Position numbers and translations under genes: made by a program. Shown in pieces: positions 2,898 through 18,318 of a stretch of DNA of 64,000 nucleotides. Source of the stretch: Clostridium sp. CX1 (GTDB lineage: Bacteria > Bacillota > Clostridia > Clostridiales > Clostridiaceae); assembly GCF_025398335.1 (NCBI RefSeq), contig NZ_JAODOO010000002.1, positions 186,001 to 250,000 on the forward strand, in the 5' to 3' direction. Numbering within the stretch: position 1 is the first letter of the stretch; every line of letters starts with the position of its first letter. The notes beneath the pieces are model-generated. The model did no database searches, was not told where the DNA came from, and worked only from the letters and a program-made list of their open reading frames with translations.

Positions 2898-2994
2898 AAT
2901 AAATCATTCGTCTTTTCAGTTGTTACCTTAAATAAGAAGATATCGTAGTGACCTCGGCAAGTCTAATAATTTTTTATGGATTATGTATTGGAAT

Positions 2995-3910: not shown

Positions 3911-3967
3911 AATAAATAATTTTCATAAAATCCTCATTCATACAGACTAACTATAGTTGCTGTATGA

Positions 3968-4231: not shown

Positions 4232-4260
4232 TCTAATTTACCTCCTCAAAATACTTGTAA

Positions 4261-4515
4261 TTAATCAAACCACTCTGGTTTATCTTCATAACACATTGCA
4301 GTTTTAGTAATTTCTTTGAATTCAAGACATTTTTCACAGAAAAATTTATCTACTCTTTTCCACTCCTTACCTGGCCTTACTCCTATCCAAGCATCTTCGC
4401 CATGCTGCCTTGAAGTTCCCATATAGACAAATTTATGTTCACATTGTTTCACCTGCATAGGAGGTCTTTTAGGAGGTGGATAACTAGCTGGTGGAACCTT
4501 CTTTATATCATCCAT
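4261..4515 (-). CDS. Phage protein with CxxC motif, unknown (84 aa)
   Basis: A Pro-rich N-terminus (PPASYPPPKRPP) is followed by a small domain holding CEHKF and FFCEKCLEF, which could bind zinc as a knuckle. The ribosome site GGAAGTG precedes the ATG. No named family recognised. Confidence 0.65.
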   Translation of the reverse strand: MDDIKKVPPASYPPPKRPPMQVKQCEHKFVYMGTSRQHGEDAWIGVRPGKEWKRVDKFFCEKCLEFKEITKTAMCYEDKPEWFD

Positions 4516-4561
4516 CTTTAATCACTTCCTTCGATTAATAGTTGCAAAACCTCACTTTGAT

Positions 4562-5053
4562 TTAATAATTAGTGGTAGCTATAATATATGGCTCCTCTAT
4601 AGCTCCCTGTAATTTGATTACTTCCCTGAAAGACATTAACCTTTCCACTATGCTTTTATCTTCAATTCCACGTCTTAAGTCACCTATGCCACCTCTGCAG
4701 ATTTCATCATAATCACCTAACTCTGCAATATCTTCTGGATTATTTGTTTGATACCACATAACATCTTTATCTATGTCACATTCTTCTAACTCCAAATCAT
4801 CATCTAAATAAAATTCTTTAATAACCCATTGTCTAGTCTTTTCTAAGTCCCAAGCACTTGCATACCATTCACTATCACCATCAAAATACACTCTCAAGCC
4901 ACTAGGATTATAAAGGTCACTTATCCCTTTTTCAAATGTTTCGCACTTCCCACTTTCATCAATCTCAATTCTTTCTTCATTTATGTTTTTCATACAATTA
5001 TCTTCCCAATAATGTTTACACTCACTGTTCATACACATCATGTTTATAGCCAT
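4562..5053 (-). CDS. Phage protein with N-terminal Cys cluster, unknown (163 aa)
   Basis: The first 40 residues carry four cysteines spaced as CMNSEC...NC...KC, like small metal-binding DUF1540-type segments. The rest is acidic and contains YFDGDSEWYASAWDLEKTRQ. A GGGGGA ribosome site is present. Metal binding is inferred; no function is known. Confidence 0.65.
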   Translation of the reverse strand: MAINMMCMNSECKHYWEDNCMKNINEERIEIDESGKCETFEKGISDLYNPSGLRVYFDGDSEWYASAWDLEKTRQWVIKEFYLDDDLELEECDIDKDVMWYQTNNPEDIAELGDYDEICRGGIGDLRRGIEDKSIVERLMSFREVIKLQGAIEEPYIIATTNY

Positions 5054-5088
5054 GCTAATTCCCCCTTACATTTTAAATGAATTGCGAC

Positions 5089-6015
5089 CTAACTAAATAA
5101 GCTTTTAACATAATTCAATTGTTTATTTTTATCTATTTGACTTCCTGCTGATTTTGGATGCCCACCGCCTCCAAATTGTTTTGCAAATACTCCTAAATCT
5201 ATATCTTTAATACCTCTATAGCTTATTGTTTTATCACCAATTAGCACTATAAAATCTAACTCTACAAACTTTTCTGCTAGGTAATTTCCTAGTTCAGATA
5301 TATATTGGTCTGCAAATACAATACCAACCTTATAATTCTGCAAGTCTTGTTTTAACAGTTCTTTGGATTTCTTTTCAAAATAAACTTGTTTTTTATCTTT
5401 ATCAAGCTCCAGTAATAGCAAATCAGTTTCATCAAATTCAAACTTGTTTTTTGTTTCAAGTTTTTTAATTATCTTATTCACAAATTTTTCTTTACCATAT
5501 AACCCCAAAAGATTACTTAGTTGACCTGACATTTCATTGTTATAAATAGTTTTCCATTCCCAAGTGTCATATTGTCTTACTAGCTCTACAAACTCTTTTA
5601 AACCTTTATAATTAACAGAATCATCTTGTTGTAGAACATTATAAAATAAACTTGTTCCTGATGTTTTACCTAATTCATTTTTCGTAATTACATTACACCA
5701 CCAATATTTATCAAGTTCCATAGCTGTAGGATGATGGTCTATAAGAGTAAAACTCTCGCATAGATTAAATCCTTCTTTGAAGTTATCAGGATGAGTATTC
5801 TCTATTAGTTCAGCTAATTCTTGATTTATTGATATATCAGTTATATAAACATGGTTATAATTGCTATACTCTTTATTTTCTATAAAATCCTTAACTTTAT
5901 CATTTATATCATTGTAGCCACAATATTCAACATCAACCTTATTGAATGCTAATAAAGCTAATACAGCACATCCGACACCATCTAAATCGTTATGAGTAAA
6001 TAATTTTATATTCAT
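5089..6015 (-). CDS. DHH-family phosphoesterase (NrnB/YorK-like)
   Basis: This is a Mn-dependent phosphoesterase of the DHH superfamily, which includes RecJ, oligoribonucleases and cyclic-dinucleotide hydrolases. The motifs are HNDLDGVGCA near residue 8, an Asp-containing YITDIS strand, the DHH signature TLIDHHPTA near residue 108, and the C-terminal DHHA1 motif FGGGGHPKSAG. The length (308 aa) fits the compact NrnB-like group. The start was set two codons inside the longest frame because GGAGG is ideally spaced from the second ATG. In a phage it may degrade short RNA or DNA, or a signalling nucleotide. The substrate cannot be read from sequence. Confidence 0.85.
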   Translation of the reverse strand: MNIKLFTHNDLDGVGCAVLALLAFNKVDVEYCGYNDINDKVKDFIENKEYSNYNHVYITDISINQELAELIENTHPDNFKEGFNLCESFTLIDHHPTAMELDKYWWCNVITKNELGKTSGTSLFYNVLQQDDSVNYKGLKEFVELVRQYDTWEWKTIYNNEMSGQLSNLLGLYGKEKFVNKIIKKLETKNKFEFDETDLLLLELDKDKKQVYFEKKSKELLKQDLQNYKVGIVFADQYISELGNYLAEKFVELDFIVLIGDKTISYRGIKDIDLGVFAKQFGGGGHPKSAGSQIDKNKQLNYVKSLFS

Positions 6016-6070
6016 TTTCAATCCTCCATTTAATCTTTTATTTAGGTCGTATAATATTCAGAGTCTGCAG

Positions 6071-6295
6071 CTAACTAAAAAAACTTATTAATCTTTGCTT
6101 TATTCCTAATTTACTCTTTTCAGGCTCCGCTACCTTCCTATCCAAATTCTTTTCAATTTCAACGAGATTTTCGCAGCTTGCTTCCAGTTCCATTACCCTA
6201 TTTTTAAGTTCCTTATTTTCTTGATACAGTTCATCTATAATGTCATTAGCTTCAAGTACTAACCTTGATAATTGCTTTCTTTTCCCCCTACTCAT
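6071..6295 (-). CDS. Small coiled-coil phage protein (74 aa)
   Basis: Heptad-like spacing of Leu/Ile between about residues 8 and 55 (LSRLVLEANDIIDELYQENK and onward) predicts a coiled coil. Basic N-terminus. Ribosome site AAGGAGC. No family recognised. Confidence 0.65.
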   Translation of the reverse strand: MSRGKRKQLSRLVLEANDIIDELYQENKELKNRVMELEASCENLVEIEKNLDRKVAEPEKSKLGIKQRLISFFS

Positions 6296-6363
6296 GCTCC
6301 TTAACCTCCACTATATTTTTTATAAGCTCTGAGTTTCTGAGGAAATTCTCAGAGCTTTACACA

Positions 6364-6639
6364 TCAAACTTTAATATCTTCCATCCCTAAAATTACATAA
6401 CCTTCCTTTACAAACTGCTCATCATCAAGCTTGTATACTATCCGCTTAGGTATCCATGCTCCTGTTTTTATTTGCTTAATCGGGTCAAATTCCTCGAGTA
6501 TCAAAGTGTCACCTACTCGATAATTCCTATCGTTTTTTCTAACTTCAAACTGCTTAATTCCGCTCCTAACATCTTGAAAGAATTGAGTCCAGGTTTTTAA
6601 ATAATGTACATTTTCTCCGCATACCAAACTTTTACCCAT
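6364..6639 (-). CDS. DUF3850 protein (ASCH/PUA-like fold)
   Basis: The sequence HYLKTWTQFFQDVRSGIKQF, then EVRKNDRNYRVGDTLILEEF and a final GYVILGM follow the DUF3850 pattern. This is a small ASCH-type domain thought to bind RNA or modified nucleotides and is common in phages and plasmids. The length (91 aa) matches a single domain. Good GGGGAG ribosome site. The biochemical role is not known. Confidence 0.85.
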   Translation of the reverse strand: MGKSLVCGENVHYLKTWTQFFQDVRSGIKQFEVRKNDRNYRVGDTLILEEFDPIKQIKTGAWIPKRIVYKLDDEQFVKEGYVILGMEDIKV

Positions 6640-6663
6640 ACCTATCTCCCCTTACTTTTAAAT

Positions 6664-6957
6664 TCAACCTTTCGTTTTAAACTCTATTTCTCCCTTATTC
6701 CAAACCATTCTAGAACTTGTATAAATATTATTTAAAACTCTCATAATATGCTCTATTCTCCCCTTTAATGTTGTCTGTTTAGTTTTTGTAGCCTGCTCTA
6801 GTTCACGTACCTCTATTAAGATATTGCTCCATCTTTCATATTGGGCAAGGGCATTTTTATGTAACTTATATGCCCTTGCGTACTCTGTATCCTGAAGTGT
6901 ATTAAACTCATTAACTAGATTTATATAGTTCTGAGCATCTTGATTATAGTCTTCCAT
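6664..6957 (-). CDS. Helical phage protein, unknown (97 aa)
   Basis: The protein is mostly helical and Gln/Asn-rich, with a probable coiled coil over residues 10-75. It sits 18 bases downstream of the DUF3102 gene and probably shares its mRNA. No family recognised. Confidence 0.65.
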   Translation of the reverse strand: MEDYNQDAQNYINLVNEFNTLQDTEYARAYKLHKNALAQYERWSNILIEVRELEQATKTKQTTLKGRIEHIMRVLNNIYTSSRMVWNKGEIEFKTKG

Positions 6958-6975
6958 ACTATCACCTTGTCCTTT

Positions 6976-8028
6976 TTAAAGCTTCTCAGCCATTTTTTCA
7001 ATAACACCAGTAACCGCTTTTTTATATTTCTCTTTAACTTCATCTTCTTCTATTTCTGACAAGGTACCGAGTAGTGATTTAAAGTTCTCAACCAATTCAT
7101 TAAAGTATACCGAAAACTTAACAACTGGCTGGCTATTACTGGCCACTTTTTCTCTAAGCTCTTGAAGTTCTTTTTCAACTTCTTCAGGAATCTTTTCAAT
7201 AATCTCTGGAGAAGTTACCACTTCTATAGGCTTCTCTTTAAGCTGTTTCTCCAATTGCTGTATTTTATCACTTGCATCTAATAGCTTGTACTCAGCTTCA
7301 TAAAGGCTTGCTTGAAGCTTTTCAACACCCTCATTATTTCCGGAAGCTTGAGCCTTAGCTAACTGCTCATTTATTTCATTAATATGGGTTCTAAGGTTTT
7401 CAATTTCAACCTCTCTATTGGTTAGTTCATCTTTATTTTTATCTTTAAGTTCCTCTAATTCTTTTCTTAGCTTTTCTACATTCTTGGAGTACTTTTCATT
7501 GGATTTTTCCAGCTTATTATAGCTTTCCGAAACAGTTTCCCATGCTTTATGCTCTAGTTCTGCTTTTTTCTCAGCAGCTTTTAACTTATCTTCCAACTCC
7601 TGCTTTTCTTTTATCACTTTTTGAAGCTCCCTAGTGGACATATCTTCAACATTATTTTCTTTTACAAATTCCTCCCGCTCCTTTTCTGGTATCTCCAGCA
7701 AAGCTATAGCCTGGGAATAGCTTAAAGTGGCAAACGCTTGCGACTTTGAATTGTCTCCAAGAAGTGTAATTTGCTCTGAGCCATATTCATTAAATATCCT
7801 CATAAGGTTGTTAGCAGTTCTTTGAGAGTAATCAACAGACTCCTTTAACCACTTCCCCCACTCTCCATGCCCTACAATTTCCTTCGCTTCTACTAAACGT
7901 CTTCCAATCTCTATACTGTTATAGAGGACCATCTTTCTAGTCTGCTCTTTTATGTTATTAATCTCCGCTGCTATTAAATCTGGAGTTCTTGTTATTGGAT
8001 TTAAACCACTTTTTATAATTTCAGACAC
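6976..8028 (-). CDS. DUF3102 protein with long coiled coil
   Basis: The first 130 residues match the DUF3102 pattern, including RRLVEAKEIVGHGEWGKWLK and SYSQRTANNLMRIFNEYG. This is a ParB-HTH-like segment common in Firmicutes prophages and conjugative elements. A long coiled coil follows (about residues 135-285, Glu/Lys/Leu-rich), then a helical tail. The start is GTG after AGGAGGAG. The likely role is DNA binding or partition/replication support, from the HTH and context; no function is established. Confidence 0.85.
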   Translation of the reverse strand: MSEIIKSGLNPITRTPDLIAAEINNIKEQTRKMVLYNSIEIGRRLVEAKEIVGHGEWGKWLKESVDYSQRTANNLMRIFNEYGSEQITLLGDNSKSQAFATLSYSQAIALLEIPEKEREEFVKENNVEDMSTRELQKVIKEKQELEDKLKAAEKKAELEHKAWETVSESYNKLEKSNEKYSKNVEKLRKELEELKDKNKDELTNREVEIENLRTHINEINEQLAKAQASGNNEGVEKLQASLYEAEYKLLDASDKIQQLEKQLKEKPIEVVTSPEIIEKIPEEVEKELQELREKVASNSQPVVKFSVYFNELVENFKSLLGTLSEIEEDEVKEKYKKAVTGVIEKMAEKL

Positions 8029-8039
8029 AATATCTCCTC

Positions 8040-9563
8040 CTATGCTGGTACTGATATTTTGATTTTTTTCTTACCTAATTTTTCAGCTTTAAAAACTTCA
8101 ATAAACATTTTAACTTCCTCATCTGGCATGCAGTTTCTTTTCCCATGAACCTGCCTTATCTCATCATCTTTTATTTCTACTGTATAGTAAGGTTTATCAG
8201 GTTCTGATATTTTCCTTAGAAGAAATATATTTGTTTCTCCCTTTGCATAAGGTTTAATATAGTTAGTTGCTACACAATGATTTAATGTCTTGCCCTCTAA
8301 TATTAATTCCTCTGTACCTTCAGCCGCTCTAATTACTAAATCCTTATATTTAAAGTAATATTTTTCATTTAATGCTCCTACACGTCTAGATATTTTTTCA
8401 TTTGATATTTTATCCGCTTTTACTTTAACTTGCTTCATTGTATTTTGATGGAGTTTATATACATCCTTTGGGTATAAAACATGATCTGAATTTAAATCCA
8501 TTTCTAAATCGATACAGTTTTCTATGTAGTCACTCCATGTAGTAGTTACAGAGCCTTTAGCTACATAATGTTTTTTATATTTTTCATACTGTTTTTCAAT
8601 ATATTTAACAGCCTTTCTCATTGAAGTGTATTTTAAAATATGTTTCAGCTTTTCAAAATAAAATTGGTATTCAATTTCTATCTCTTTAACCTCTTTAGGA
8701 GAAAGTATTGATTTATCTTTCACCTGCAATTGATATAAACTAAGAAAGAAAGGTGTTATATTTTTATTTGAATTTATAATGTCCTTTACATCTTTTCTAG
8801 GTAATCTAAGCACCTTAAATATGTCTTTACCTCTATAATTTAAGCAATTATGCATCTGTCCGCCTTTTATTTTAGTTTCAACTATATCCTTAAATCCCAT
8901 TTTGTATAGCTGCTCTAACCACGGATATTTTGTAAATTCATCAAATACTTTTACTGTGCTATGGTAGCCTTGAAGCAGCTCTTTAGGAATATATTGAAAC
9001 CTTGTATCCTTTGTGGCTTCTTCAATGCTTTCACGTGATATATAACACATTTTAGGAGCAAACCACCCTTGATTAAAGTCAAAGACGCTTTTTTTCTCGT
9101 CCCACCTTGCCCCTTGAAAATAACTGTTATTAAACTTTAGCATTTTACTCTTTTTATCTTCAAAGATATAAATTGCTTCAAGCAAGAATTCAGTTACTGG
9201 ATTTTTATAATCTGCTGTGTAGTCCCTTGACACATAATATCCCTTACAAACTACAGCACTAGGATTTTTTATGGATTTTTCAAAGTAATAGAAACAAGCA
9301 TCATTCCTGCAGTTTTTTCTACCATAGCGGCTTTGCTTTACCTGTAAATTCGCTCCACATTGTGGGCAAATTCCACTTGCATTATGCTTATAATTTTGAC
9401 TTAACTCATATTCTTTATGACACTTAGTACAATGCCCTTGGTAAATTCCATTTACCTTTTCAATAAATAAATATTCCCTTTCTCCAAACACTTCATCATC
9501 AACGAACTTTTCTATTTTCTCCGTTATTTCTTTAGAAATATGGCTGGTATATTCCTCATACAT
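8040..9563 (-). CDS. PcfJ-like protein
   Basis: The 507-residue product has an N-terminal zinc ribbon (CTKCHKEY and CPQCG, about residues 39-70) and a large helical middle. The C-terminal PcfJ-like signature includes LNHCVATNYIKPYAKGETNI, then FLLRKISEPDKPYYTVEI and HGKRNCMPDEEV. PcfJ was named from the pCF10 conjugative plasmid, and relatives are common in clostridial prophages. The biochemical role is unknown. It lies next to a PcfK-like gene, the same pairing as on plasmids and conjugative elements. Confidence 0.85.
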   Translation of the reverse strand: MYEEYTSHISKEITEKIEKFVDDEVFGEREYLFIEKVNGIYQGHCTKCHKEYELSQNYKHNASGICPQCGANLQVKQSRYGRKNCRNDACFYYFEKSIKNPSAVVCKGYYVSRDYTADYKNPVTEFLLEAIYIFEDKKSKMLKFNNSYFQGARWDEKKSVFDFNQGWFAPKMCYISRESIEEATKDTRFQYIPKELLQGYHSTVKVFDEFTKYPWLEQLYKMGFKDIVETKIKGGQMHNCLNYRGKDIFKVLRLPRKDVKDIINSNKNITPFFLSLYQLQVKDKSILSPKEVKEIEIEYQFYFEKLKHILKYTSMRKAVKYIEKQYEKYKKHYVAKGSVTTTWSDYIENCIDLEMDLNSDHVLYPKDVYKLHQNTMKQVKVKADKISNEKISRRVGALNEKYYFKYKDLVIRAAEGTEELILEGKTLNHCVATNYIKPYAKGETNIFLLRKISEPDKPYYTVEIKDDEIRQVHGKRNCMPDEEVKMFIEVFKAEKLGKKKIKISVPA

Positions 9564-9578
9564 TTAAATCACCTCACC

Positions 9579-9965
9579 TTATAGAAAATCTTCTAAACTC
9601 ACATCAAAATCTATATCTTTTTTAGGCTTCGGTTCTATATTTTCTACCGGTGCATGAGAAGGTTCTATCTCTGGAGTTATAGCCGCTTTGTCTACATTAT
9701 CCTTTATTCCAAAATACTTTAATACTATTTCAAAGCCTTCCTGGTCCGTAAGCATAGCTCTCCCATTAACCGCTTTCTTTCTTGCAACATTAGCCATCTC
9801 ATTAATGCTTTTTGCAATTGTCTTATCTTCAGCTAATATCTTTTCCGCTGCAGCTGGATATCTGTTAACATGCTGTAGTAAAAATTCTCCTATAGCTTTT
9901 ACATAAGGATCCTTAGTTTCTTTATTCATTTCAGTTTTTAACTTATTAATTGCTTTAACAATCAT
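9579..9965 (-). CDS. PcfK-like / AcrIIA9-family protein
   Basis: The segment EDKTIAKSINEMANVARKKA followed by LTDQEGFEIVLKYFGI matches the core of PcfK-like proteins (KTI...A.K.A...DE..F....Y). Databases now label part of this family as AcrIIA9 Cas9 inhibitors. The C-terminus is an acidic, Pro-rich tail ending DFDVSLEDFL. It is paired with the PcfJ-like gene 15 bases downstream. Anti-Cas9 activity was shown only for some relatives, and I infer it as a possibility here. The alternative is a replication or plasmid-maintenance role. Confidence 0.7.
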   Translation of the reverse strand: MIVKAINKLKTEMNKETKDPYVKAIGEFLLQHVNRYPAAAEKILAEDKTIAKSINEMANVARKKAVNGRAMLTDQEGFEIVLKYFGIKDNVDKAAITPEIEPSHAPVENIEPKPKKDIDFDVSLEDFL

Positions 9966-10057
9966 TCTTTTACACCTCTCTATTTTTAAGCAGAATTACC
10001 GCTCCTTAATAAACTTTCTTAATATGCTTGTCCTAACATTAACTATATAGACTACCC

Positions 10058-10447
10058 TTACAGTAACTTACCATCTCCAAGATAGCTTAATATTGTCTTT
10101 GAAGCTTCTTCCCATCCTCTGCAAACTACTGCGTAATACCCTTGTGAATTTAAAGCTTCTAACCAATGGTCCTGATTTTCTGTAGTACTGTTACCTTTTT
10201 TCTTTTTAAGCTCTATGTATAGTCCATAAAAGCCATTGCGTGCTACTGGCAGATGAATGTCTGGCACTCCTGCCTTTACCCCTTCAGCTTTTAATCTTTT
10301 GGCTGTAGTAATGCTTCTCTTCCCTCCATTAGGGATATGATACATAAGGGCTAACTCTGGATACTTTCCCTCTTCATACATAGCCCATCTGAATAGACAT
10401 ATTTGCTCTACGCTTTCACTTGGTACTGGCAGCTTACTTTTTCCCAT
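10058..10447 (-). CDS. VRR-NUC domain nuclease
   Basis: This 129-residue protein is a stand-alone VRR-NUC (PD-(D/E)xK) nuclease. The motifs are an N-terminal SVEQICLFRWAM helix, HIPNGGKRS, the catalytic GVPDIHLP Asp and the GLYIELKKKKG Glu-x-Lys. The same fold in phages and in FAN1 cuts branched DNA or acts as a Holliday-junction resolvase. It lies between the Rep gene and the PcfK gene, in line with a replication or recombination role. Start by AAGGAAGGG. Confidence 0.88.
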   Translation of the reverse strand: MGKSKLPVPSESVEQICLFRWAMYEEGKYPELALMYHIPNGGKRSITTAKRLKAEGVKAGVPDIHLPVARNGFYGLYIELKKKKGNSTTENQDHWLEALNSQGYYAVVCRGWEEASKTILSYLGDGKLL

Positions 10448-10510
10448 AATACCCTTCCTTTCTTCTTGTTGATAACTTGTGTATAACTTGTTAGTAATTT
10501 GTGTGTATCT

Positions 10511-11326
10511 TCATTCTAGTCTCCTCAATTTTAAATATATGGACCACCCTGTTATGTCGTTATATTCAGGTCTGAACCCATAATAATCATTTGTAAGAGT
10601 CCACCCAGGATATTTCTTTTCCCAATATGCTCTATCAGGCATTTCTTTACATATTCTTTCAACTTCTCTTTTGCTGTACCTATAATCATTAGTTCGAGAA
10701 TAAGGCTTTTTCAAATTCTGTGATGAACTCCATCGCTTTTTTCTATTAGTGAACTTTGTAAGATATCTACATAAAGCCTCAGCTCCATTTTCATCCGGCT
10801 GTAGTCTATCTGCATTTATATAACCTATTCTTTCACCTTTTTTTTGACCCTTTTGTTTTCTTTTAGACCAAAGCTCTTCTACGATATCTCTATCAAGACC
10901 GCCATTCATAAAAAGGTGATGATGTATTCTTACAGGCTTTTTTTCATCCTTTTCAGTGATGTATTCTGTCACAAGTATATACTTCAAAGGTTCTAAGCCT
11001 TCTTTTTTCCTTCTATAGCTGATTCTACGTAAATAGTTTGATATTTCTCTTTCAGCCTCTTCTAACGTTTCCGGTAAGAACTTGTCCTTATATGTTGCAG
11101 TAACATGTAAGTCTCTTTCATCAAAATTTGTATTGACAAGCTGTATAAAATATCTTTTAGCATTTTTATCATTCAGGTTCTTCTGCTTCGGTTCACTTTC
11201 TTTTCTCTTCTTAGATCTCTTACCTCTTCTGCTTGCTTCTTCTTGAGTCTTTGTATAAGTGTATATATCTACTTCTATATGGTTATCTCCACAATATATC
11301 TTTTTCTCCCTTGTGAAAGTCCTCAT
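10511..11326 (-). CDS. HUH-type replication initiator (Rep, ORF2/G2P-like)
   Basis: The protein shows the hallmarks of a rolling-circle Rep nuclease. A first motif strand is HVTATYKD (about 74-81). The metal-binding HUH motif is RIHHHLFMNGG (His135-137). The candidate catalytic Tyr is Tyr188 in ALCRYLTKF. The N-terminus is very basic. The 271-residue length fits the phage/plasmid Rep group with the ORF2/G2P-like domain. It should nick one strand at an origin and prime replication from the 3' end. No helicase or primase gene is seen in this part of the prophage. A 386-base leader upstream holds a candidate antisense RNA. Confidence 0.8.
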   Translation of the reverse strand: MRTFTREKKIYCGDNHIEVDIYTYTKTQEEASRRGKRSKKRKESEPKQKNLNDKNAKRYFIQLVNTNFDERDLHVTATYKDKFLPETLEEAEREISNYLRRISYRRKKEGLEPLKYILVTEYITEKDEKKPVRIHHHLFMNGGLDRDIVEELWSKRKQKGQKKGERIGYINADRLQPDENGAEALCRYLTKFTNRKKRWSSSQNLKKPYSRTNDYRYSKREVERICKEMPDRAYWEKKYPGWTLTNDYYGFRPEYNDITGWSIYLKLRRLE

Positions 11327-11534
11327 GTCTTTTCCTTCTTCTCCCTTCTATCAAGTAAGGAGTATATAATTTATAACCTATCCTATTCTTTTATATATTT
11401 ATATCTATCTCTATTATCTAGTTATAGATATTTTTAGATTATAAGTATTTTATAATATATATAATTAAATAGTATCGTTATAATATTAATACCCTATACA
11501 AGCCCTAAAAGCATTGATTTAAGTCCATATTTTA

Positions 11535-11564
11535 TTGACCTTCACCGCTTTAATTTGATATAAT
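11535..11564 (+). promoter_or_regulatory. Strong sigma-A promoter (extended -10) driving short RNA
   Basis: TTGACC at -35, an 18-base spacer and TATAAT at -10, with a TG one base before the -10. It points away from the Rep gene, against the surrounding leftward genes. No protein gene lies downstream on this strand before a terminator. Confidence 0.65.
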
Positions 11565-11570
11565 GGAGAT

Positions 11571-11652
11571 AGGATTTTTTTAAAAGCGATGAACTTTTAG
11601 GAAAACGCTTTACATCTATCTTCGCCGGATATATGTAAAGCGTTTTTGTTTA
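11571..11652 (+). ncRNA. Candidate short phage RNA, antisense to the Rep leader
   Basis: A consensus promoter is followed after about 30 bases by a perfect 14-bp terminator hairpin (AAAACGCTTTACAT arms, 11,602-11,646) and a T-rich end. This defines a transcript of about 75-80 bases. It holds only a four-codon frame. It would be complementary to the 5' leader of the leftward mRNA that includes Rep. AGCG near base 11,585 could also pair with CGCT in the left stem arm, so two folds are possible. The arrangement resembles antisense copy-number control in rolling-circle plasmids. No expression data. Confidence 0.5.
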
Positions 11653-11712
11653 CTACTTTTACTGCTTATAATAATCACATCAATTAATTGTTATCCTCCT
11701 GCTTGTCCAAAG

Positions 11713-11877
11713 TTATCTCTTATTAAAATCTTCTATGGTTAATATTTTTCCTGTGCTTCTATGAACGAAAGTATATTTTTTATTTTCTCTCTTAATCCTT
11801 AAATAATCATCTGAGTTATGTCCCTGTGCCTTTAATAACACCTTCTCATACATTGTTGGTCTTTTACCGCTTCTCAA
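11713..11877 (-). CDS. DUF6906-like small protein (54 aa)
   Basis: The product begins LRSGKRPTMYEKVLLKAQGH and ends with a RSTGKILTIEDF strand pattern. This fits the small DUF6906-type proteins common in Firmicutes phages (KxPT..qk..L...Gl........vn..tGei). The start is TTG with GGAAGTG upstream. It directly follows the Spo0E-like gene. Function unknown. Confidence 0.6.
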   Translation of the reverse strand: MRSGKRPTMYEKVLLKAQGHNSDDYLRIKRENKKYTFVHRSTGKILTIEDFNKR

Positions 11878-11894
11878 GTTTTCACTTCCTTTTT

Positions 11895-12053
11895 CTACGA
11901 ATTTTTTAATGCTGACATTTTTTTATACATTTCTTTATTTATCTCTAAATCTAACTCTTGGCTCTTAGCTACCTTTACTGGATTTGATAAATTGGATAAG
12001 TCTTCATCAAGACATATAATGACATAGAGTTCTTGTCTTAACTGTTCAAGCAT
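11895..12053 (-). CDS. Spo0E-family aspartyl phosphatase, phage-encoded (52 aa)
   Basis: The protein has the two-helix Spo0E layout. An N-terminal MLEQLRQELYVIICLDEDLS helix is followed by the signature SQELDLEIN (residues 31-39). Spo0E proteins remove phosphate from Spo0A and delay sporulation. The length (52 aa) is normal for this family. GGAGTG lies 8-9 bases before the ATG. It lies in the early leftward run close to the switch, so it may be expressed soon after infection or in the lysogen. The activity is inferred from the motif. Confidence 0.72.
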   Translation of the reverse strand: MLEQLRQELYVIICLDEDLSNLSNPVKVAKSQELDLEINKEMYKKMSALKNS

Positions 12054-12167
12054 GTCCAATCACTCCTTTTTTAGCTTTCTAATCCTTTACACTTTATCTG
12101 TTCTATTTTCAATTTAACTGCGTATAATAAACTGTGAAGTATTTGCATTTCACCGAAAAATAGTTTT

Positions 12168-12198
12168 TTATAAAAGGCTTCATTCAGCCTTCTATAAA
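12168..12198 (-). terminator. Hairpin between small early genes
   Basis: AAGGCT/AGCCTT arms extended by TATA/TATA pairing, followed on the minus strand by TTTTATAAAAAACTATTTTT. It probably trims or attenuates leftward transcription between the 58-aa gene and the Spo0E-like gene. Confidence 0.45.
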
Positions 12199-12207
12199 AA
12201 TTCCCTA

Positions 12208-12384
12208 TTAATCTTTCATTTTGATTTTTAAAATAGGCTCTAATGACTCTTTTGTTTCTTCAAGAAAATCAGCTATAAAATCAAGCTGTGAAGCTTCCTG
12301 AGAAAAACCTTCAATAATCACATCTATAACTTTATTCATAACTTCTAATTTTTTATTTTCAGTAACAACATTAATCTTATTCAT
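12208..12384 (-). CDS. Small phage protein, unknown (58 aa)
   Basis: A perfect AGGAGGTAA ribosome site precedes the ATG. The product (MNKINVVTENKKLEVMNKVI at the start) is helical and acidic, with ASQLDFIADFLEETKE in the second half. No family recognised. It is divergent from the neighbouring membrane-protein gene. Confidence 0.65.
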   Translation of the reverse strand: MNKINVVTENKKLEVMNKVIDVIIEGFSQEASQLDFIADFLEETKESLEPILKIKMKD

Positions 12385-12414
12385 AACTGTTACCTCCTAA
12401 GAGCTATCAACTTC

Positions 12415-12443
12415 TTGTACCCCCTTGTAGTTAATGCTAGAAT
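12415..12443 (+). promoter_or_regulatory. Promoter of the rightward membrane-protein gene
   Basis: TTGTAC, a 17-base spacer and TAGAAT with an upstream TG (extended -10). It lies 25 bases before the ATG of the only sizeable rightward gene in the early region, giving it transcription independent of the phage lytic promoter. Confidence 0.6.
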
Positions 12444-12467
12444 TCTGTTGAAAGGGGTGAATTTTAA

Positions 12468-13043
12468 ATGAACTTTAATTTTCTACAATCAGATACATTT
12501 AAAAATCTAACAGGTTTAGTCTCAATTGTAATAACCTATAGCGTTGCAAGATTTAACCTACAAACTCCACGCAAAGTGGAAGCTAAAAAACAACAACTAC
12601 AAAATGTGTACCTTCCATTATTTAAGCTAATTGAGCCACATATTTATAAAGATATCTCAAATGAATTCGCCTTAACTTTGGTAGAAAAAATGAATTCTTT
12701 TATAGATTCTTATTATGAATTCATAAACCCAAATTTAATACATATTTTTAGAAAGCTTGAAGCTAATGTCGTATTAAATAAAAATTTTTTTGAAGAATAT
12801 CAATCCTTTTGCTCTGTAGTTGATAAAGACTTTGAAAAACTAAGAAAGTCCTTATTCTTACCTACCAGAGGAATTATTTATAAGATTAACACTAGGCAAT
12901 TTCCTAAGGATACACAAACTCTAATAAGTGAAATAGCAAGACTCTTTCTTAGTTTAATTTCTAAAATTATTTTGCTTTTATCAACAGCCTTTGCTTTTGC
13001 TTTTATTACTAGTGTGATATCCAAACTAAAAGTGTTATTTTAA
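12468..13043 (+). CDS. Prophage membrane protein on opposite strand, cargo candidate
   Basis: The 191-residue product has an N-terminal membrane segment (about 14-31) and a C-terminal one (about 163-184, KIILLLSTAFAFAFITSVI). Between them lies a helical, charged domain of about 130 residues. AAAGGGGTG precedes the ATG. It runs against its neighbours from its own extended -10 promoter, the usual form of a gene expressed in the lysogen (moron). Its end overlaps that of a convergent small membrane-protein gene. No family recognised. Defence, exclusion or host-modifying roles are all possible. Confidence 0.75.
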   Translation: MNFNFLQSDTFKNLTGLVSIVITYSVARFNLQTPRKVEAKKQQLQNVYLPLFKLIEPHIYKDISNEFALTLVEKMNSFIDSYYEFINPNLIHIFRKLEANVVLNKNFFEEYQSFCSVVDKDFEKLRKSLFLPTRGIIYKINTRQFPKDTQTLISEIARLFLSLISKIILLLSTAFAFAFITSVISKLKVLF

Positions 13044-13198
13044 TCATCCACTGCAATTAAAGCAGCAAATATAACACAAGAAACTATTAAATACTTTCCT
13101 AAACCATCAACCGCATTAAATCCTAATACTGTACAAAGTGTAATATATACTACTAGATTAATTAGGTTCAATCCGATTAGTTTAAACAAATAGTACAT
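13040..13198 (-). CDS. Small two-helix membrane protein (52 aa)
   Basis: Two hydrophobic segments, about residues 4-26 and 33-50 (YLIVSCVIFAALIAV), fill nearly the whole product, which ends in two Asp residues. AGGGTG lies five bases before the ATG. Its stop codon overlaps that of the convergent membrane-protein gene. A holin-like or toxin-like role is conceivable, but no family is recognised. Confidence 0.6.
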   Translation of the reverse strand: MYYLFKLIGLNLINLVVYITLCTVLGFNAVDGLGKYLIVSCVIFAALIAVDD

Positions 13199-13253
13199 TT
13201 AATCACCCTATTCTCTCGTAAAATTTACTGGTTAACTTGGGCACTATTTAATA

Positions 13254-13487
13254 TTATGCTTGCTCCTGAAATGGTACTTCAGGAGCAACTACTTCCTTTT
13301 TTAATCTATCAAACAAACTAGAAAAAACTCTTTCTGTCTCTACATCATGTCCTGAAAGCCACAATAAGTATCTTTTATCTTCATCAGATAACTCTATGCC
13401 TTTAAAGTTTTCAGCAAGTCTAAAATACCTTTGCTTCTGCCATTCCCCAACATTGTTAAATTTATATTCAAATGTGTTTTCAAACAA
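13254..13487 (-). CDS. Phage protein, unknown (77 aa)
   Basis: The start is TTG preceded by AGAGGT. The product contains EWQKQRYFRLAENFKGIELS and reads as a small soluble helical protein. No family recognised. Confidence 0.55.
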   Translation of the reverse strand: MFENTFEYKFNNVGEWQKQRYFRLAENFKGIELSDEDKRYLLWLSGHDVETERVFSSLFDRLKKEVVAPEVPFQEQA

Positions 13488-13520
13488 CTTTATGACCTCT
13501 TTCCGCTTTCAAATTCTAAC

Positions 13521-13718
13521 CTAAATTGCTGCTTCTTCCTGCTTAAATGGCATTGTAAATATCCCTATATCCAGAGCGTTTTCTTTTATATACTTTTCTA
13601 CATCTTCATCTGTATATATCCCATATTCATTTAGGTATTTCCATGTTTGCTCTAGTCGCTCTCTTCTTGCTTCTGGGTTTTCTCTAAGCTCTTTACGAGT
13701 GTATTCCTTATATTCCAT
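13521..13718 (-). CDS. Phage protein, unknown (65 aa)
   Basis: A charged helical protein starting MEYKEYTRKELRENPEARRE, with an acidic middle (YTDEDVEKYIKENA). GGAGGGTAG precedes the ATG. It is part of the leftward early run. Confidence 0.6.
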   Translation of the reverse strand: MEYKEYTRKELRENPEARRERLEQTWKYLNEYGIYTDEDVEKYIKENALDIGIFTMPFKQEEAAI

Positions 13719-13728
13719 GGCTACCCTC

Positions 13729-13884
13729 CTAATTATTGTTTTGAATTTTTAACAAAATACTTTCAAATATTTCTTTATCATAAGTGAAAACTTCATAGTC
13801 ACCGTTCTCTTTCATTTCAGCAACTCTATCTTCCACAAGCTCTTTAATCCAATTTAATTCTTTTTCTTCAAAACTAATATTCAT
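13729..13884 (-). CDS. Phage protein, unknown (51 aa)
   Basis: A short acidic helical product (MNISFEEKELNWIKELVEDR and onward). The ribosome site is weak (AAGGGCG). The ATG is the first in frame. It ends just before the next gene's ribosome site. Confidence 0.5.
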   Translation of the reverse strand: MNISFEEKELNWIKELVEDRVAEMKENGDYEVFTYDKEIFESILLKIQNNN

Positions 13885-13988
13885 ATCATTATCGCCCTTC
13901 TCGCTAATTGGTATTTTGTGTATTCGTCCTTTATGTGGTAAAATCTTCTTGAGCCTGAACCATCCTCTAGTGATAGGAGGTGATACTA

Positions 13989-14159
13989 TTGAGTAAAGAA
14001 GAAATTGCTAAAGAACTTACACTTGCTGCTATAAATAACAAATTGATAACTGTTAACACAAGTAAATTTGACTCATACGTTGAGTATAGTGAAAAAGTTG
14101 CTGAGAATGTTGCCGCATTCTACAACAAACTTATGGAGCAATTAGATGTTAGAGAATAG
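13989..14159 (+). CDS. Small rightward phage protein (56 aa)
   Basis: A perfect AGGAGGTGA ribosome site stands before a TTG start. The product begins MSKEEIAKELTLAAINNKLI and is helical. It runs against its neighbours and its last 11 bases overlap the 3' end of the convergent 60-aa gene. No family recognised. Confidence 0.6.
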   Translation: MSKEEIAKELTLAAINNKLITVNTSKFDSYVEYSEKVAENVAAFYNKLMEQLDVRE

Positions 14160-14331
14160 CATTCAATAATTGTGCTACTTCACACATTGTTTCTATATTT
14201 TTTCTACATTGTTCAGGCTCGGTTTTCTTATTCTGTTTATTCCAGTCATCTAAGAGCTTAATGTTTTCCATTAAAATATCTACTACATTAACAAGTTTTT
14301 CTCTATTTTCTTTTGATACAGGTTTCACCAT
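14149..14331 (-). CDS. Small helical phage protein (60 aa)
   Basis: The start was moved to the ATG after GGGGGTG, two codons inside the longest frame. The product (MVKPVSKENREKLVNVVDIL and onward) is a helical hairpin type with two Cys near residues 43 and 51. Convergent overlap with the rightward gene. Confidence 0.6.
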   Translation of the reverse strand: MVKPVSKENREKLVNVVDILMENIKLLDDWNKQNKKTEPEQCRKNIETMCEVAQLLNAIL

Positions 14332-14381
14332 CTTCACCCCCTTCCGCTACCTTAATATCTATTCCTTACCACCTTCTTTCT

Positions 14382-14540
14382 CTAAGCTGGGTGCTTTGAA
14401 GTTTTATTATTTAACAGCTCATATCCCATAGCCATAATAAACATTGTGTTTTTCTGCTCTTCTGTTAACTTGCTGAATATTTCCGCCATTTCCTTTGCAT
14501 CTGCTTTTTTCTTTTGAAATGAAGATTTATTTTCTGACAT
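14382..14540 (-). CDS. First leftward gene of the switch, unknown (52 aa)
   Basis: AAGGAGGTGATAAG precedes the ATG, and the gene directly follows the leftward promoter of the operator block. This is the Cro-like position, but the product (MSENKSSFQKKKADAKEMAE and onward) shows no clear helix-turn-helix. It contains KLTEEQKNTMFIMAMGYELL, a segment found in small regulators of similar position. Role unknown. Confidence 0.65.
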   Translation of the reverse strand: MSENKSSFQKKKADAKEMAEIFSKLTEEQKNTMFIMAMGYELLNNKTSKHPA

Positions 14541-14562
14541 CTTATCACCTCCTTGTTTATTT

Positions 14563-14656
14563 ATCGGATTGTCTATATTATATTATAGATAATCTATAAA
14601 GTCAATATAGATTATTAAATTTTTATATAGACAATCCGATTTATTTATTTTATAAT
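14563..14656. promoter_or_regulatory. Divergent promoter/operator block of the lysogeny switch
   Basis: A perfect 16-bp inverted repeat ATCGGATTGTCTATAT / ATATAGACAATCCGAT (14,563-14,578 and 14,625-14,640) encloses a second inverted pair, ATAATCTATA / TATAGATTAT. The hexamer TATAGA or its complement occurs five times. The leftward promoter has TTGACT (14,605-14,600) and TATAAT (14,582-14,577) with a 17-base spacer. The rightward promoter has TAGACA (14,628-14,633) and TATAAT (14,651-14,656), also 17 bases apart. The repeats overlap both promoters, so the repressor would be expected to act on both. Confidence 0.85.
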
Positions 14657-14687
14657 TAAATCATCATTTATAGATGGGGGTGATAAA

Positions 14688-15272
14688 ATGAATGAAAATA
14701 GTTTCGATGATATTCGTGACAGAATACGTTATTTAAGAGAAGAAATTCTTAAAATTAAGCAAAATGAAATGTCTGTAAAGCTGGGTTTAAAACAAGGTTC
14801 TTTATCCGACATTGAAAGAAAAAAGACTAAAAATGTGACAGATAGAGTTATAAACGATATTTGCCGTGAATTTTTAGTCAATGAAGATTGGTTAAGATAT
14901 GGAACTAAGCCTATACTCATCGAAAATGACTCTACTATACTGGATGAACTAGCTTCAGAATATAAACTCAATCCAAGAGATATGAAATTCTTCCAAACTT
15001 ATTTAAATCTTACTCCAGAACAACGAGAAGCTCTAACGGAATTTTCTATTAACTTCGCTAATGCTGTAGCTAAAGATGAAACTGCAGCCACGAATACTGA
15101 AGAAACAGTAACTACTAAAGAATATAAATATAGTATTGTAGCTGAAGAGTCTGGGGAATACTTAGATGATTCCATAAGAGCAGAAGTAGAGGCGTTTACC
15201 GCTGAACTTCTAGCTACCAAAAAAGGGAAAATATCATCAGCTTTAGAGCAGCAAGACGAAAAATTAGCTTAA
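14688..15272 (+). CDS. CI-like phage repressor, XRE family
   Basis: An N-terminal XRE helix-turn-helix (about residues 8-65, with VKLGLKQGSLSDIERKK as recognition region) is joined to an acidic helical C-terminus. There is no S24 protease domain, so lifting of repression would need another route than RecA-driven self-cleavage. It is transcribed rightward from the operator block, divergent from the early genes. GGGGGTG precedes the ATG. The tail EVEAFTAELLATKKGKIS resembles other clostridial prophage repressors. Confidence 0.88.
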   Translation: MNENSFDDIRDRIRYLREEILKIKQNEMSVKLGLKQGSLSDIERKKTKNVTDRVINDICREFLVNEDWLRYGTKPILIENDSTILDELASEYKLNPRDMKFFQTYLNLTPEQREALTEFSINFANAVAKDETAATNTEETVTTKEYKYSIVAEESGEYLDDSIRAEVEAFTAELLATKKGKISSALEQQDEKLA

Positions 15273-15288
15273 AAGGAGGTATGTGCTA

Positions 15289-15870
15289 ATGTCTTTAAAT
15301 CCAATAGACAATAAAATATACACCTATGAAGATTACTTAAACTTTAAAGATACTGAACCTATTGAGATTATAGATGGGAGAATCTTAGCAATGTCACCAG
15401 CTCCAAGCAGGATACATCAGAAAATCATTTTAAAGCTTTCTACATCAATAGAGAATTATATTCAATCTAACAATGGAGAATGTGAAATTTATCCCGCTCC
15501 TTTCGATGTAATCTTGAAAAATGATGATGAAGATGTTACCTATAGTAAAAATATTGTTCAACCAGATATATCAGTTATATGTGATAAAAATAAGTTAACT
15601 GATAAAGGCTGTGTTGGTTCTCCTGATATGATAGTTGAAGTTATATCTCCTTTTAATCCTAGTAATGATTATGTAAGAAAGCTAAACCTATATGAACAAT
15701 TTAAAGTGAAGGAGTATTGGATTGTAAATCCCATGGAGAAAAATGTTTTAGTATATACTTTAACTGACAATGGTTATAATGCTCCTAAAGTATATTCTTT
15801 TAGCGATAAAGTTAAGGTTAACATCTATGATAATTTAGAAATAGACTTTAACTCACTAAATCTTTTATAA
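15289..15870 (+). CDS. Uma2-family (DUF820) endonuclease-like protein
   Basis: The protein has the PD-(D/E)xK-type core of the Uma2/DUF820 family: IIDGRILAMSPAPSRIHQKI, QPDISVIC, PDMIVEVISP and LNLYEQFKVKEYWIVNP. Catalytic residues are probably the Asp of QPD and the Glu of VEV. A GTG two codons upstream is possible, but the ATG is better spaced from AAGGAGGT. It lies between repressor and integrase and is probably cotranscribed with the repressor, so it should be made in the lysogen. The role of this family is unclear; a defensive nuclease is one possibility. Confidence 0.85.
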   Translation: MSLNPIDNKIYTYEDYLNFKDTEPIEIIDGRILAMSPAPSRIHQKIILKLSTSIENYIQSNNGECEIYPAPFDVILKNDDEDVTYSKNIVQPDISVICDKNKLTDKGCVGSPDMIVEVISPFNPSNDYVRKLNLYEQFKVKEYWIVNPMEKNVLVYTLTDNGYNAPKVYSFSDKVKVNIYDNLEIDFNSLNLL

Positions 15871-15945
15871 AGCTTCTTAATAGGATAATAACCTCATGTG
15901 TTCTAACATGGGGTTTAAAATTTAATAAAAGAAAGGAATTGTAAA

Positions 15946-17622
15946 ATGAAAAAAGCAGCATTATATGTCAGAGTTTCGACTCATTTTCAAATAGATAAAG
16001 ATTCTTTACCGCTTCAAAGGCAGGATCTTATAAACTATGCTAAATATATTCTTGGAATTGACGACTATGAAATATTCGAGGATGCTGGATATAGTGGAAA
16101 AAACACAGCTAGGCCTGCATACCAGGATATGATGAGTAGAATAAGGGCTAAAGAGTTTTCTCATCTTCTGGTGTGGAAAATAGATAGAATATCTAGGAAC
16201 CTACTTAATTTTTGCGATATGTATGAAGAGATAAAAAGGTATGGAGTTGTATTTGTAAGTAAGAATGAACAGTTTGACACTTCCTCTGCTATGGGTGAAG
16301 CTATGCTTAAAATAATCCTAGTATTTGCAGAACTTGAAAGGAAGCTTACCGGTGAAAGAGTAACCTCTGTTATGCTTTCCAGAGCGGAAAAAGGACTATG
16401 GAATGGTGCTCCTGTACCTCTAGGTTATAAATGGGATGCTGAAAAGAAATTCCCTGTTCCTGATGAGGAGGAAGCTCAATCTGTTAGACTTATTTATAAT
16501 AAATACTTAGAGGTAGAATCAACTTCCGCTTTAACTCAAATATTAAATGAATTAGGAGTAAAAACTAAAAGAGATGGTACCTGGACCACAAAAACCATAA
16601 GCGACATTATTCGTAACCCTTTTTACAAAGGTACCTATAGGTATAACTACAAAGAAAGTGCCAGAGGTAAAAAGAAGAATGAAAAGGAATGGGTATTAAT
16701 AGACAATAACCATGAAGCTATTATTCCATTGGAGCTGTGGACTGATTGTAATAAAATAATGGATAGAAATGCAGAAAGAAACAATGCAATCTTTAGGAAG
16801 AATTTTAAAATACATATCTTTGCCGGATTAGTTGAATGTGGTGAGTGCAATAATAGCTTTTATGCTAAACAGGATAAACCTAATATTGATGGTTTCAGAC
16901 CTTCTCTTTATACATGCTCTGGCAGATATCAGCACTTAGGCTGTTCCCAAAAAACCATCAGCGATAAAGTTATTGGAACACTTGTCTTTAATTTTATAAT
17001 TAACCTATTAAATATTTATAAAAATAAGAAGAGCATTAGTGTAAATGAGGTTGAATCCAATCTTCTTAAAGGAACCCCTTTTAAAGATGTATACGGCATA
17101 GAAAGTGAATGTATAGACCAAATACACTCTGCTTTAAATATTCCTAGTAAAAGAGTTCTAAACGCAAAATTAGAAGATGAAAATAAAAGTAATGATACTA
17201 ATTTAGAATATGAGAATTTAAATAAAGAAAAAGTAAAATTTGAAAGAGCTTTAAGCAGGCTCGAAGATCTATTTCTCTTTGATGAAGCTGGCATGTCTGA
17301 AAAGGATTATATTTTAAAGAAAAATAAAATAAATGAAAAACTCAAAGAAATACATGACAAACTTACTTCCATGGAAGAATCTAAGGACCTAAAAAATAAC
17401 AAACAAATAAATCTCATAATTAGAAATGAATACTGTATACTCTTAAATTCTATTGCTAAGGATGATAAAATAAATTTCAAAGATATTATTATTAAATTTG
17501 GCAGAGAAAATATAAAGGATTTTATGAATGATATTATTGATAAAATAATTGTTCGTGATAGACAAGTACTATCTATATCTTTTAAAAATGGACTAATAGT
17601 TAAGTTTATATATAAGGCTTAA
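15946..17622 (+). CDS. int: Large serine recombinase, phage integrase
   Basis: The enzyme makes double-strand cuts at attP and attB through Ser11 (ALYVRVSTHFQ). The resolvase domain spans about residues 3-150 and includes LLVWKIDRISRN and AELERKLTGER. The recombinase domain follows (GAPVPLGYKW on). A zinc ribbon has CGEC near 298-301 and two Cys near 322-332. A C-terminal coiled coil lies at about 420-480. The 558-residue length is normal. It is the last gene before the right attachment site, the usual position for this class, and AGAAAGGAA precedes the ATG. Confidence 0.95.
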   Translation: MKKAALYVRVSTHFQIDKDSLPLQRQDLINYAKYILGIDDYEIFEDAGYSGKNTARPAYQDMMSRIRAKEFSHLLVWKIDRISRNLLNFCDMYEEIKRYGVVFVSKNEQFDTSSAMGEAMLKIILVFAELERKLTGERVTSVMLSRAEKGLWNGAPVPLGYKWDAEKKFPVPDEEEAQSVRLIYNKYLEVESTSALTQILNELGVKTKRDGTWTTKTISDIIRNPFYKGTYRYNYKESARGKKKNEKEWVLIDNNHEAIIPLELWTDCNKIMDRNAERNNAIFRKNFKIHIFAGLVECGECNNSFYAKQDKPNIDGFRPSLYTCSGRYQHLGCSQKTISDKVIGTLVFNFIINLLNIYKNKKSISVNEVESNLLKGTPFKDVYGIESECIDQIHSALNIPSKRVLNAKLEDENKSNDTNLEYENLNKEKVKFERALSRLEDLFLFDEAGMSEKDYILKKNKINEKLKEIHDKLTSMEESKDLKNNKQINLIIRNEYCILLNSIAKDDKINFKDIIIKFGRENIKDFMNDIIDKIIVRDRQVLSISFKNGLIVKFIYKA

Positions 17623-17658
17623 CCATTGGTATTACTACACTCTTTACACCTTCTTAAT

Positions 17659-17733
17659 TTACACTAACGGGCAACCCCAGGTTTCTATAAAAAAGTTTTT
17701 ACTTGTTTTTTTCATATCTAGTTCTTTATACAA
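17659..17733 (-). pseudogene. miaB: miaB 5' fragment cut off by prophage insertion
   Basis: A TTG start lies six bases after a GAGGTG ribosome site and opens a 24-residue frame ending MKKTSKNFFIETWGCPLV. The piece FFIETWGC is the N-terminal signature of MiaB, the radical-SAM enzyme that adds the methylthio group to i6A37 of tRNAs; the Cys is the first ligand of the auxiliary 4Fe-4S cluster. In MiaB the next residues should be QMNEEDSEKL or similar. Here they are PLV and a stop. The rest of miaB is expected beyond the left end of the prophage. Loss of ms2 modification in the lysogen is an inference. Confidence 0.75.
17660..17692. other. Predicted right attachment site (attR) in miaB
   Basis: Host-like miaB sequence, read leftward, is recognisable up to the Cys codon at 17,671-17,673 and then changes to unrelated codons and a stop. 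The crossover should lie in or next to the GGTTGC stretch just at that point. The exact core cannot be set without the left junction or the uninterrupted gene. Confidence 0.6.
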
Positions 17734-18318
17734 TTGCTTCACCTCATACTAATACAACTTATTTTTTTAATTTTTCTATCTCTCCCTGTTTACCTTAACA
17801 GTAGAAGATAAAATAGAAAATGAATATTATAACTCTAAATTCAAATTATAATATTGACATCCTACATTATACTATATTTTTTTATGAATATCTATTTTTT
17901 ATTGTTTTTAGGCAATTTATTTAATACTGAAAGTTATGGGTTATTAACTTTCTTAACTTAGAACTTAAGATTCATATGGAATGGTATACAACAAATCATA
18001 AAAATCATTTACTAGAGGCTATAAATTGATGAATGTTTAAAAAATAACAATACTTTTATTTAAAATTCTATAAAAAATATAATTAAACATTGAAATATTG
18101 AATAAAAAATTGTATTATTATAAGTGGAGAGGATATTCTACATCAATTCACTGGAATTTGAAAAGGTTTGCAAAGTTATCTGAATAATGACTTTTTTATA
18201 TCTTTTCAAGCTTCAAATTTCATTAACATAACAGATAAGAAGGAAATTTTGAGTTTTTGTAGAATAGATATACTGTAAGACCTTAAAATATAATTATAAT
18301 TTTCGGAGGGATTTTATT
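17734..18318. promoter_or_regulatory. miaB promoter region and leader of the aminotransferase gene
   Basis: No gene is seen. The rightward promoter is TTGAAA (18,090-18,095), 17 bases, TATTAT (18,113-18,118). This gives a leader of about 190 bases before the aminotransferase ATG. Within it ATTCTACA (18,135-18,142) can pair with TGTAGAAT (18,258-18,265), and GAATTTGAAAAG near 18,155 can pair partly with CTTTTCAA / TTCAAATTT near 18,203-18,218. This forms a closed multi-stem structure. No known riboswitch class was recognised. Confidence 0.5.

Follow-up and report, generated by a model that had tools for sequence, protein, structure and literature searches.

A Clostridium prophage at the conserved cysteine codon of miaB probably rebuilds the gene with a phage-supplied 5' end

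The window analyzed here is a stretch of 64,000 nucleotides from Clostridium sp. CX1 (contig NZ_JAODOO010000002.1, positions 186,001 to 250,000; G000:C12:186001-250000 in our numbering). It opens with the right part of a prophage, which ends in the first codons of miaB. The features of the locus are listed below in window coordinates, except for the last one.

1..17672, no strand: right part of the prophage, by junction coordinates; the rebuilt miaB is at the other end, outside the window
14688..15272, plus strand: helix-turn-helix protein, likely a repressor, by reading only
15283..15870, plus strand: Uma2-family protein next to the integrase, by family search
15946..17622, plus strand: large serine integrase, 558 aa, with Resolvase, Recombinase and zinc ribbon domains
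17648..17670, minus strand: phage right arm of the attachment site (P'), an inverted repeat of the left arm, by sequence
17659..17733, minus strand: remnant of the native miaB 5' end, from a TTG start to a stop within phage DNA, 25 codons including the stop
17670..17676, minus strand: GGTTGCC, the 7 bp found in both junctions (codons Gly-Cys plus C), by junction comparison
17673-17672, minus strand: putative crossover dinucleotide TG, with the axis placed by dyad symmetry
17740..17745, minus strand: GAGGTG, native miaB ribosome site stranded on the remnant, by sequence
17866..17871, minus strand: TATAAT, likely native miaB -10 box stranded on the remnant, by resemblance to genus relatives
G000:C12:159203-160558, minus strand: rebuilt miaB at the far prophage junction, outside the window

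The domains PF00239, PF07508 and PF13408 all scored above cut-off in the 558-residue integrase, which is the domain composition of a large serine recombinase. Genes located between the two prophage ends matched PHROGs families for the large terminase, portal, head, tail sheath, tape measure, baseplate and endolysin. The element is therefore a prophage, and the sheath gene suggests that its tail is contractile. The gene order of helix-turn-helix protein, Uma2-family protein and serine integrase (window 14688-17622) is kept in the related locus L227 (2415-5239). A second recombinase gene, for a XerC-like tyrosine recombinase, is present inside the prophage (L008 17105-17914). Adjoining the lysis genes at the left prophage end are genes for a Mob_Pre (MobV-type) relaxase and a VirD4/TraG-type coupling protein (L008 12318-13337 and 13796-15238; G000:C12:162318-165238). 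Neither gene matched a PHROGs family. Proteins related to the coupling protein were found in 3111 of 72,556 plasmid records, as compared to 25 of 50,697 phage records. The phage might be mobilisable by conjugation. The left end of a Clostridium peptidivorans prophage carries an FtsK/SpoIIIE-type ATPase and a Replic_Relax protein at the equivalent place (L217 4090-6014), again a plasmid-like module.

The remnant ORF extends on the minus strand from the TTG at 17733 to the end of a TAA at 17659 and reads (start)YKELDMKKTSKNFFIETWGC-PLV-stop, with a gap of 36 bp to the end of the integrase ORF. In all six other genomes of the genus that were examined, miaB is uninterrupted; its start ends in ETWGC and continues into QMNEEDSEKL. 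The -10 region on the window side, AGTATAATGTA, is nearly identical in four of these six genomes, and a related one is present in the other two. Because this is the native form in the genus relatives, the start beside the integrase is that of the host, and the start now on miaB that of the phage. A chance ORF is ruled out by the relatives with the same uninterrupted start, as judged from their sequences. The first-pass annotation had recognized here a TTG-started frame with a GAGGTG ribosome site, and had taken it for a truncated miaB start beside a serine integrase; this was exactly right.

The far prophage end is located at G000:C12:160489, which is 25.5 kb to the left of window base 1. The opposite end of the 43.2-kb prophage is also in miaB, beside mutS, in agreement with the first-pass proposal of a prophage inside miaB. 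The junction sequences place the cut directly after the TWGC codons, as had been proposed, and the remainder of miaB predicted for this end (QMNEEDSEKL..., then mutS) was found there. Measured from Cys codon to Cys codon, 43,184 bp separate the remnant and the rebuilt gene. The ORF is unbroken at the far junction, reads MQLKGLKEIKKATDKTFFISTYGC-QMNEEDSEKL... and comprises 451 aa in total. The phage contributes a promoter-like sequence, a ribosome site, an ATG and 24 codons ending in FFISTYGC, all in frame with the body of the gene. The expectation that MiaB, and hence ms2i6A, would be lost unless the phage excises is not supported: the joined ORF is that of a full-length MiaB, and the phage brings its start codon along with a ribosome site and a promoter-like sequence. 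An insertion in miaB had also been said to be contradicted by a complete miaB elsewhere, together with no remainder at the left junction, which is not what was found; the complete miaB is the left junction itself.

The rebuilt MiaB scored 572 bits against the MiaB equivalog model TIGR01574 (cut-off 355.3) and is the only match above this cut-off in the genome, so a second miaB copy was rejected. Two more full-length relatives scored below the cut-off, at 310 and 306 bits, and are presumably MtaB and RimO. Mis-assembly of the junctions was likewise rejected, since the layout recurs in independent genomes. The protein could be aligned to the solved MiaB structure 7mjv from residue 13 onward, including the TYGC motif. 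The conserved cysteine of the T-x-G-C motif is a ligand of the iron-sulphur cluster. Directly behind the junction, miaB, mutS, mutL, miaA and hfq follow each other on one strand, as identified with NCBIfam.

The left phage arm at the far end encodes TFFISTYG. When the phage halves were joined to reconstruct attP, 16 of 22 positions paired when the axis was placed on the TG of TGC, as compared to 5 of 18 in the joined attB of the same site. The reconstructed site has by its sequence what is expected of a large-serine-recombinase attP, namely a length of about 50 bp, dyad symmetry about a central dinucleotide and a different attB. For the 14 related prophages with both ends on the same contig (see below), attP symmetry was on average 9.64 of 18 at the Cys-codon axis, whereas 16 shifted axes gave 3.50-6.00 and the joined attB sites 4.14 of 18. 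Since attP halves from different phages also gave a raised value (7.59 of 18 in 182 cross pairs), part of the symmetry signal is common to the integrase family. We infer that the crossover takes place at the TG of the conserved-Cys codon (GGT-TGC), and the left attP arm would then be integrase site and coding DNA at once.

A free attP of the miaB type was sought in IMG/VR. The pattern TACGGNTGYCCGTTNGT was too loose, giving 49 stretches with the expected peptide in none of them, and the pattern GAAACHTGGGGNTGYCCGT gave three stretches, all of them attR sites of contigs already known. A longer attP pattern gave five stretches, of which one, L227, was new. It was rejected as a free attP and assigned as attR, because its neighbour gene is related to an acetyltransferase gene that borders the host side of the prophage, both in the window and in L025, L026 and L029. 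L227 is a host-side junction with a phage-type miaB start and promoter at 2200-2400 (QTYGC, TGTTATAATACTATAG), which may have been left behind by a phage swap in the past. In L049, a 3.6-kb MAG contig, a prophage-left side like that of genome G071 (69.6% identity over 984 bp) is joined to an integrase side with 93.6% identity to L054, and the contig can be read as a free attP carrying an mtaB start. The free attP form is also present in the genome of Burkholderia phage JC1.

The phage start of miaB has a GGAGG ribosome site. A candidate promoter, TTGTAA-17-TATAAT with TG before the -10 box, lies 43 nt upstream of the phage start (TTGTAA-17-TGnTATAAT, a match at 10 of 12 positions). A single match of this kind proves nothing alone, and a scan of 1.9 kb gave 6 promoter-like sites as compared to 7.8 expected in shuffles, that is, no excess. 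The candidate is conserved in relatives: TGnTATAATAC is located at the same place in all five Clostridium prophage ends aligned (our own and four others), and also in the sixth aligned locus, the host-side junction L227. Both the phage and the native promoter of miaB look ordinary. Between miaB and mutS, a hairpin followed by a T-rich stretch is predicted (L008 9141-9205; -20 kcal/mol, z -4.5, none of 200 shuffles as stable), and the gap also gave a terminator-like match. The hairpin is possibly a terminator or an attenuator.

Relatives of the integrase were collected from IMG/VR (11 loci), from genus-to-class relatives and from GTDB genomes, for which the best 80 of 355 loci were inspected. 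Among the matches listed for the genus-to-class genomes, 3 of 56 others had an integrase match of at least 43% identity (G019, G025 and G039). In the best 80 of 355 GTDB loci, an in-frame T-x-G-C remnant beside the integrase was found in 26 (16 miaB-like and 10 mtaB-like), and another three had such a remnant plus one extra base. The 3' end of queA was recognized by motif in 16, and 35 of the 80 carry no target label. Apart from our own locus, G076 and two queA loci, these labels rest on short motifs identified by reading. The remnant was also present in 4 of the 11 viral loci (L010, L011, L013 and L020), two of which, L010 and L013, are not independent of the genome loci L026 and L030.

The methylthiotransferase domain was sought in 30 genomes or records, with 40 stretches examined; none was found in three viral records, nor in a set of eight that includes the same three. 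Both prophage ends were located on the same contig and in the expected orientation in 14 genomes, including our own (8 with miaB and 6 with mtaB). In 13 of these 14, the start codon at the phage end is in frame with the methylthiotransferase gene, and a ribosome-site-like sequence was present in all 11 that were inspected of the 13. This count leaves out 11 genomes with a plausible left end on another contig (G080, G059, G065, G066, G067, G068, G064, G061, G069, G078 and G072), as well as G058 and G074, which gave no usable left end. In G072, miaB is located behind recA-like and rny-like genes, which is the native site. The exception among the 14 is G071 (L055/L111), where one extra C before GGTTGC shifts the phage ATG by one base against the reading frame of the rebuilt ORF. 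The same extra C is found in the integrase loci L049, L054 and L066 of the mtaB clade. It may be speculated that mtaB is off in lysogens of this type, or that the frame is regained by slippage at the A run before the extra C.

The 13 rebuilding prophages include elements of unusual size, approximately 4.4 kb in G076, 72 kb in G073 and 115 kb in G063. In G076, the approximately 4.4 kb between the ends hold the integrase and two small genes (L224 2808-7045); this is a minimal element or a remnant, and it still rebuilds mtaB. In G073 (Halonatronum), type III CRISPR (Cmr)-like genes were noted by reading near the rebuilt miaB end (L222 4312-6720). In G075 (Lachnospiraceae), the phage-borne N-terminus comprises 55 residues, with 34 of 45 identical to those of the host, a likeness that goes far beyond the needs of an integrase arm. 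In Clostridium difficile CD160 (L030, L117), the two prophage ends share 251 bp at 98.4% identity, the promoter region included, and the DNA upstream of the rebuilt miaB resembles phage tail genes by reading. This phage seems to have recently captured the miaB 5' end of its own host.

Both junctions, the intact chimeric ORF, the native sites of the relatives and the same layout in related prophages can be read directly from the DNA. The features of a 5'-rebuilding element are present: the insertion lies within the 5' coding part, the native start is left as a remnant, and an N-terminus with a start codon is supplied in frame. Based on these data, we consider it very probable that the phage enters the start of miaB at the conserved-Cys codon and carries a replacement 5' end, so that the gene is rebuilt. 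The large serine integrase would insert the phage at the Cys codon of the T-x-G-C motif, with crossover at the putative TG. The left half of the attachment site would bring in the promoter-like sequence, the ribosome site, the ATG and 24 codons, and integration would swap the promoter and the first 24 codons of miaB rather than destroy the gene. At the opposite end of the prophage, the native start would persist as a remnant of 24 codons. Transcription would proceed from the putative phage-supplied promoter, and the chimeric MiaB is predicted to be active. The likeliest benefit is that a highly conserved coding site at the head of an operon could be used without harm to the host.

Neutral rebuilding of this kind is the simplest reading, and a bolder one, compatible with it, is that the phage takes over control. 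Its promoter would then re-tune miaB and, by read-through, mutS, mutL, miaA and hfq; tRNA modification or mismatch repair would be altered in lysogens, and the swap would be a regulatory device. The order of these five genes on one strand directly behind the junction and the severing and replacement of the native miaB promoter are consistent with such control, as are the precedents in the available text on IMEVchUSA3, which lowers dusA (PMC8409611), and on the mutL islands of Streptococcus pyogenes (PMC3430984). However, the strong hairpin and T-rich stretch suggest that mutS may be largely uncoupled from miaB, and neither promoter stands out from the ordinary; we regard phage control as a possible but rather unlikely addition.

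Two other explanations were weighed. Active lysogeny, in which the lysogen lacks MiaB until the phage excises, agrees with the 43.2 kb that separate the native start from the gene body and with the frame that seems broken in G071. It entails a gene that is interrupted in the lysogen, whereas the miaB ORF is rebuilt here with a start, a ribosome site and a promoter-like sequence, and 13 of the 14 same-contig prophages rebuild their target; this explanation is therefore very improbable. Even less credible is an accidental in-frame fusion, in which any similar core would satisfy the integrase and the frame stays open by chance. The core common to both junctions is just 7 bp, as such an accident would have it, but chance would hardly produce a start codon and an in-frame ORF in 13 of 14 pairs, ribosome-site-like sequences in every case inspected, an extended -10 box conserved in five aligned Clostridium prophage ends and, in G075, a 45-residue stretch homologous to the host N-terminus. 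A prophage amid a conserved gene need not inactivate that gene, and the tell-tale is the far junction.

The rebuilding of 5' ends is already known from dusA, prfC and rimO. The closest case is Burkholderia phage JC1 (OM283127), which according to the available text integrates in rimO and supplies the ATG (PMC9144972). It resembles the miaB prophage in its serine recombinase, in its entry into the 5' end of a methylthiotransferase gene, and in the phage ATG and replaced N-terminus with the ORF kept in frame. In contrast, its target is rimO, its host is Burkholderia rather than a member of Bacillota, approximately 10 residues are replaced, and the available part of the source describes an ATG and no promoter (PMC9144972). 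In the JC1 genome, attP reads MSKKYSIGIVSLGC-PRDIGS..., with CTCGGG-TG-CCCGAG at the homologous Gly-Cys codons. The JC1 integrase shows no significant similarity to ours (20% over 325 aa, E 0.048).

Integrases and islands associated with dusA are described, in the portions available, as supplying a new promoter and N-terminus (PMC4482086; IMEVchUSA3, PMC8409611). Like the miaB prophage, they use the 5' end of a tRNA-modification gene, keep the frame and leave the native 5' end as a remnant; they differ in the target gene, which is miaB here and not the dusA that defines the group, and are described there from Proteobacteria. For IMEVchUSA3, dusA expression was measured and is reported to be lower than native despite the supplied promoter (PMC8409611). 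The same text cites ICE SXT in prfC for replacement of promoter and N-terminus (PMC8409611), which concerns another gene and another kind of element. The SpyCI islands at mutL in S. pyogenes are described in the accessible text as switching mismatch repair, with one variant rescuing the operon through a promoter in the element (PMC3430984). They too are mobile elements at the 5' end of a gene in a mismatch-repair operon, but transcription is blocked there while the island is resident, whereas miaB, one gene upstream of mutS, is rebuilt via the attachment site. Mobile elements in a methylthiotransferase gene also include Variovorax prophage J1_pp_2, which has a serine integrase, and a Polaromonas element, both at rimO (PMC9658991, PMC4482086); the available parts of these sources give a table entry and a mention, without a statement on frame or N-terminus. 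In the open-licence PMC literature, we found no report of a serine-integrase lineage that is tied to the Cys codon of miaB or mtaB and whose attP arm is also protein-coding.

The comparison suggests a rule of site choice, in that integrases from two or more lineages are found at one and the same cysteine codon in three sister genes. The locus also offers a test system for one DNA arm that serves as both integrase site and coding sequence, and integrase/attB pairs that target a conserved coding sequence might find use as tools. Since mismatch-repair genes belong to the cluster headed by the rebuilt miaB, the promoter swap could alter the mutation rate or translation in lysogens.

Related integrases use the same Cys codon of miaB or mtaB, and their history was examined in a quick tree of 86 integrases with labels set beforehand (16 miaB, 12 mtaB, 16 queA 3' and 42 unlabelled). 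L029, L031 and L104, in which no unbroken ORF was found, were left out of the tree. The target labels required 2 changes on the tree as compared to 20.9 in shuffles, a degree of clustering that is inflated by near-copies among the 86 sequences. The mtaB integrases formed one side of a branch with support 90, and the queA 3' integrases did likewise with support 100, whereas miaB needs two changes. The few label changes suggest that the integrases have been target-bound over long times and have rarely moved between paralogues. A joint reading, which we offer tentatively and consider somewhat doubtful as a whole, is that a serine-integrase lineage co-diversified with methylthiotransferase genes, at the Cys codon of miaB and, in a separate clade, of mtaB, while JC1-type integrases reached rimO independently. 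The left attP arm would be doubly constrained, the phage promoter would control the head of the miaB-mutS-mutL-miaA-hfq cluster in lysogens, and the 5' ends could be renewed when host DNA is captured, a step suggested by the near-identical 251-bp copies in one C. difficile assembly.

A sister clade of the integrases likewise occupies a tRNA-modification gene, queA, in this case at its 3' end, which was identified by motif in 16 loci (L058, L061, L068, L069, L076, L080-L082, L084-L086, L097, L099-L101 and L103) and by NCBIfam in two of them.
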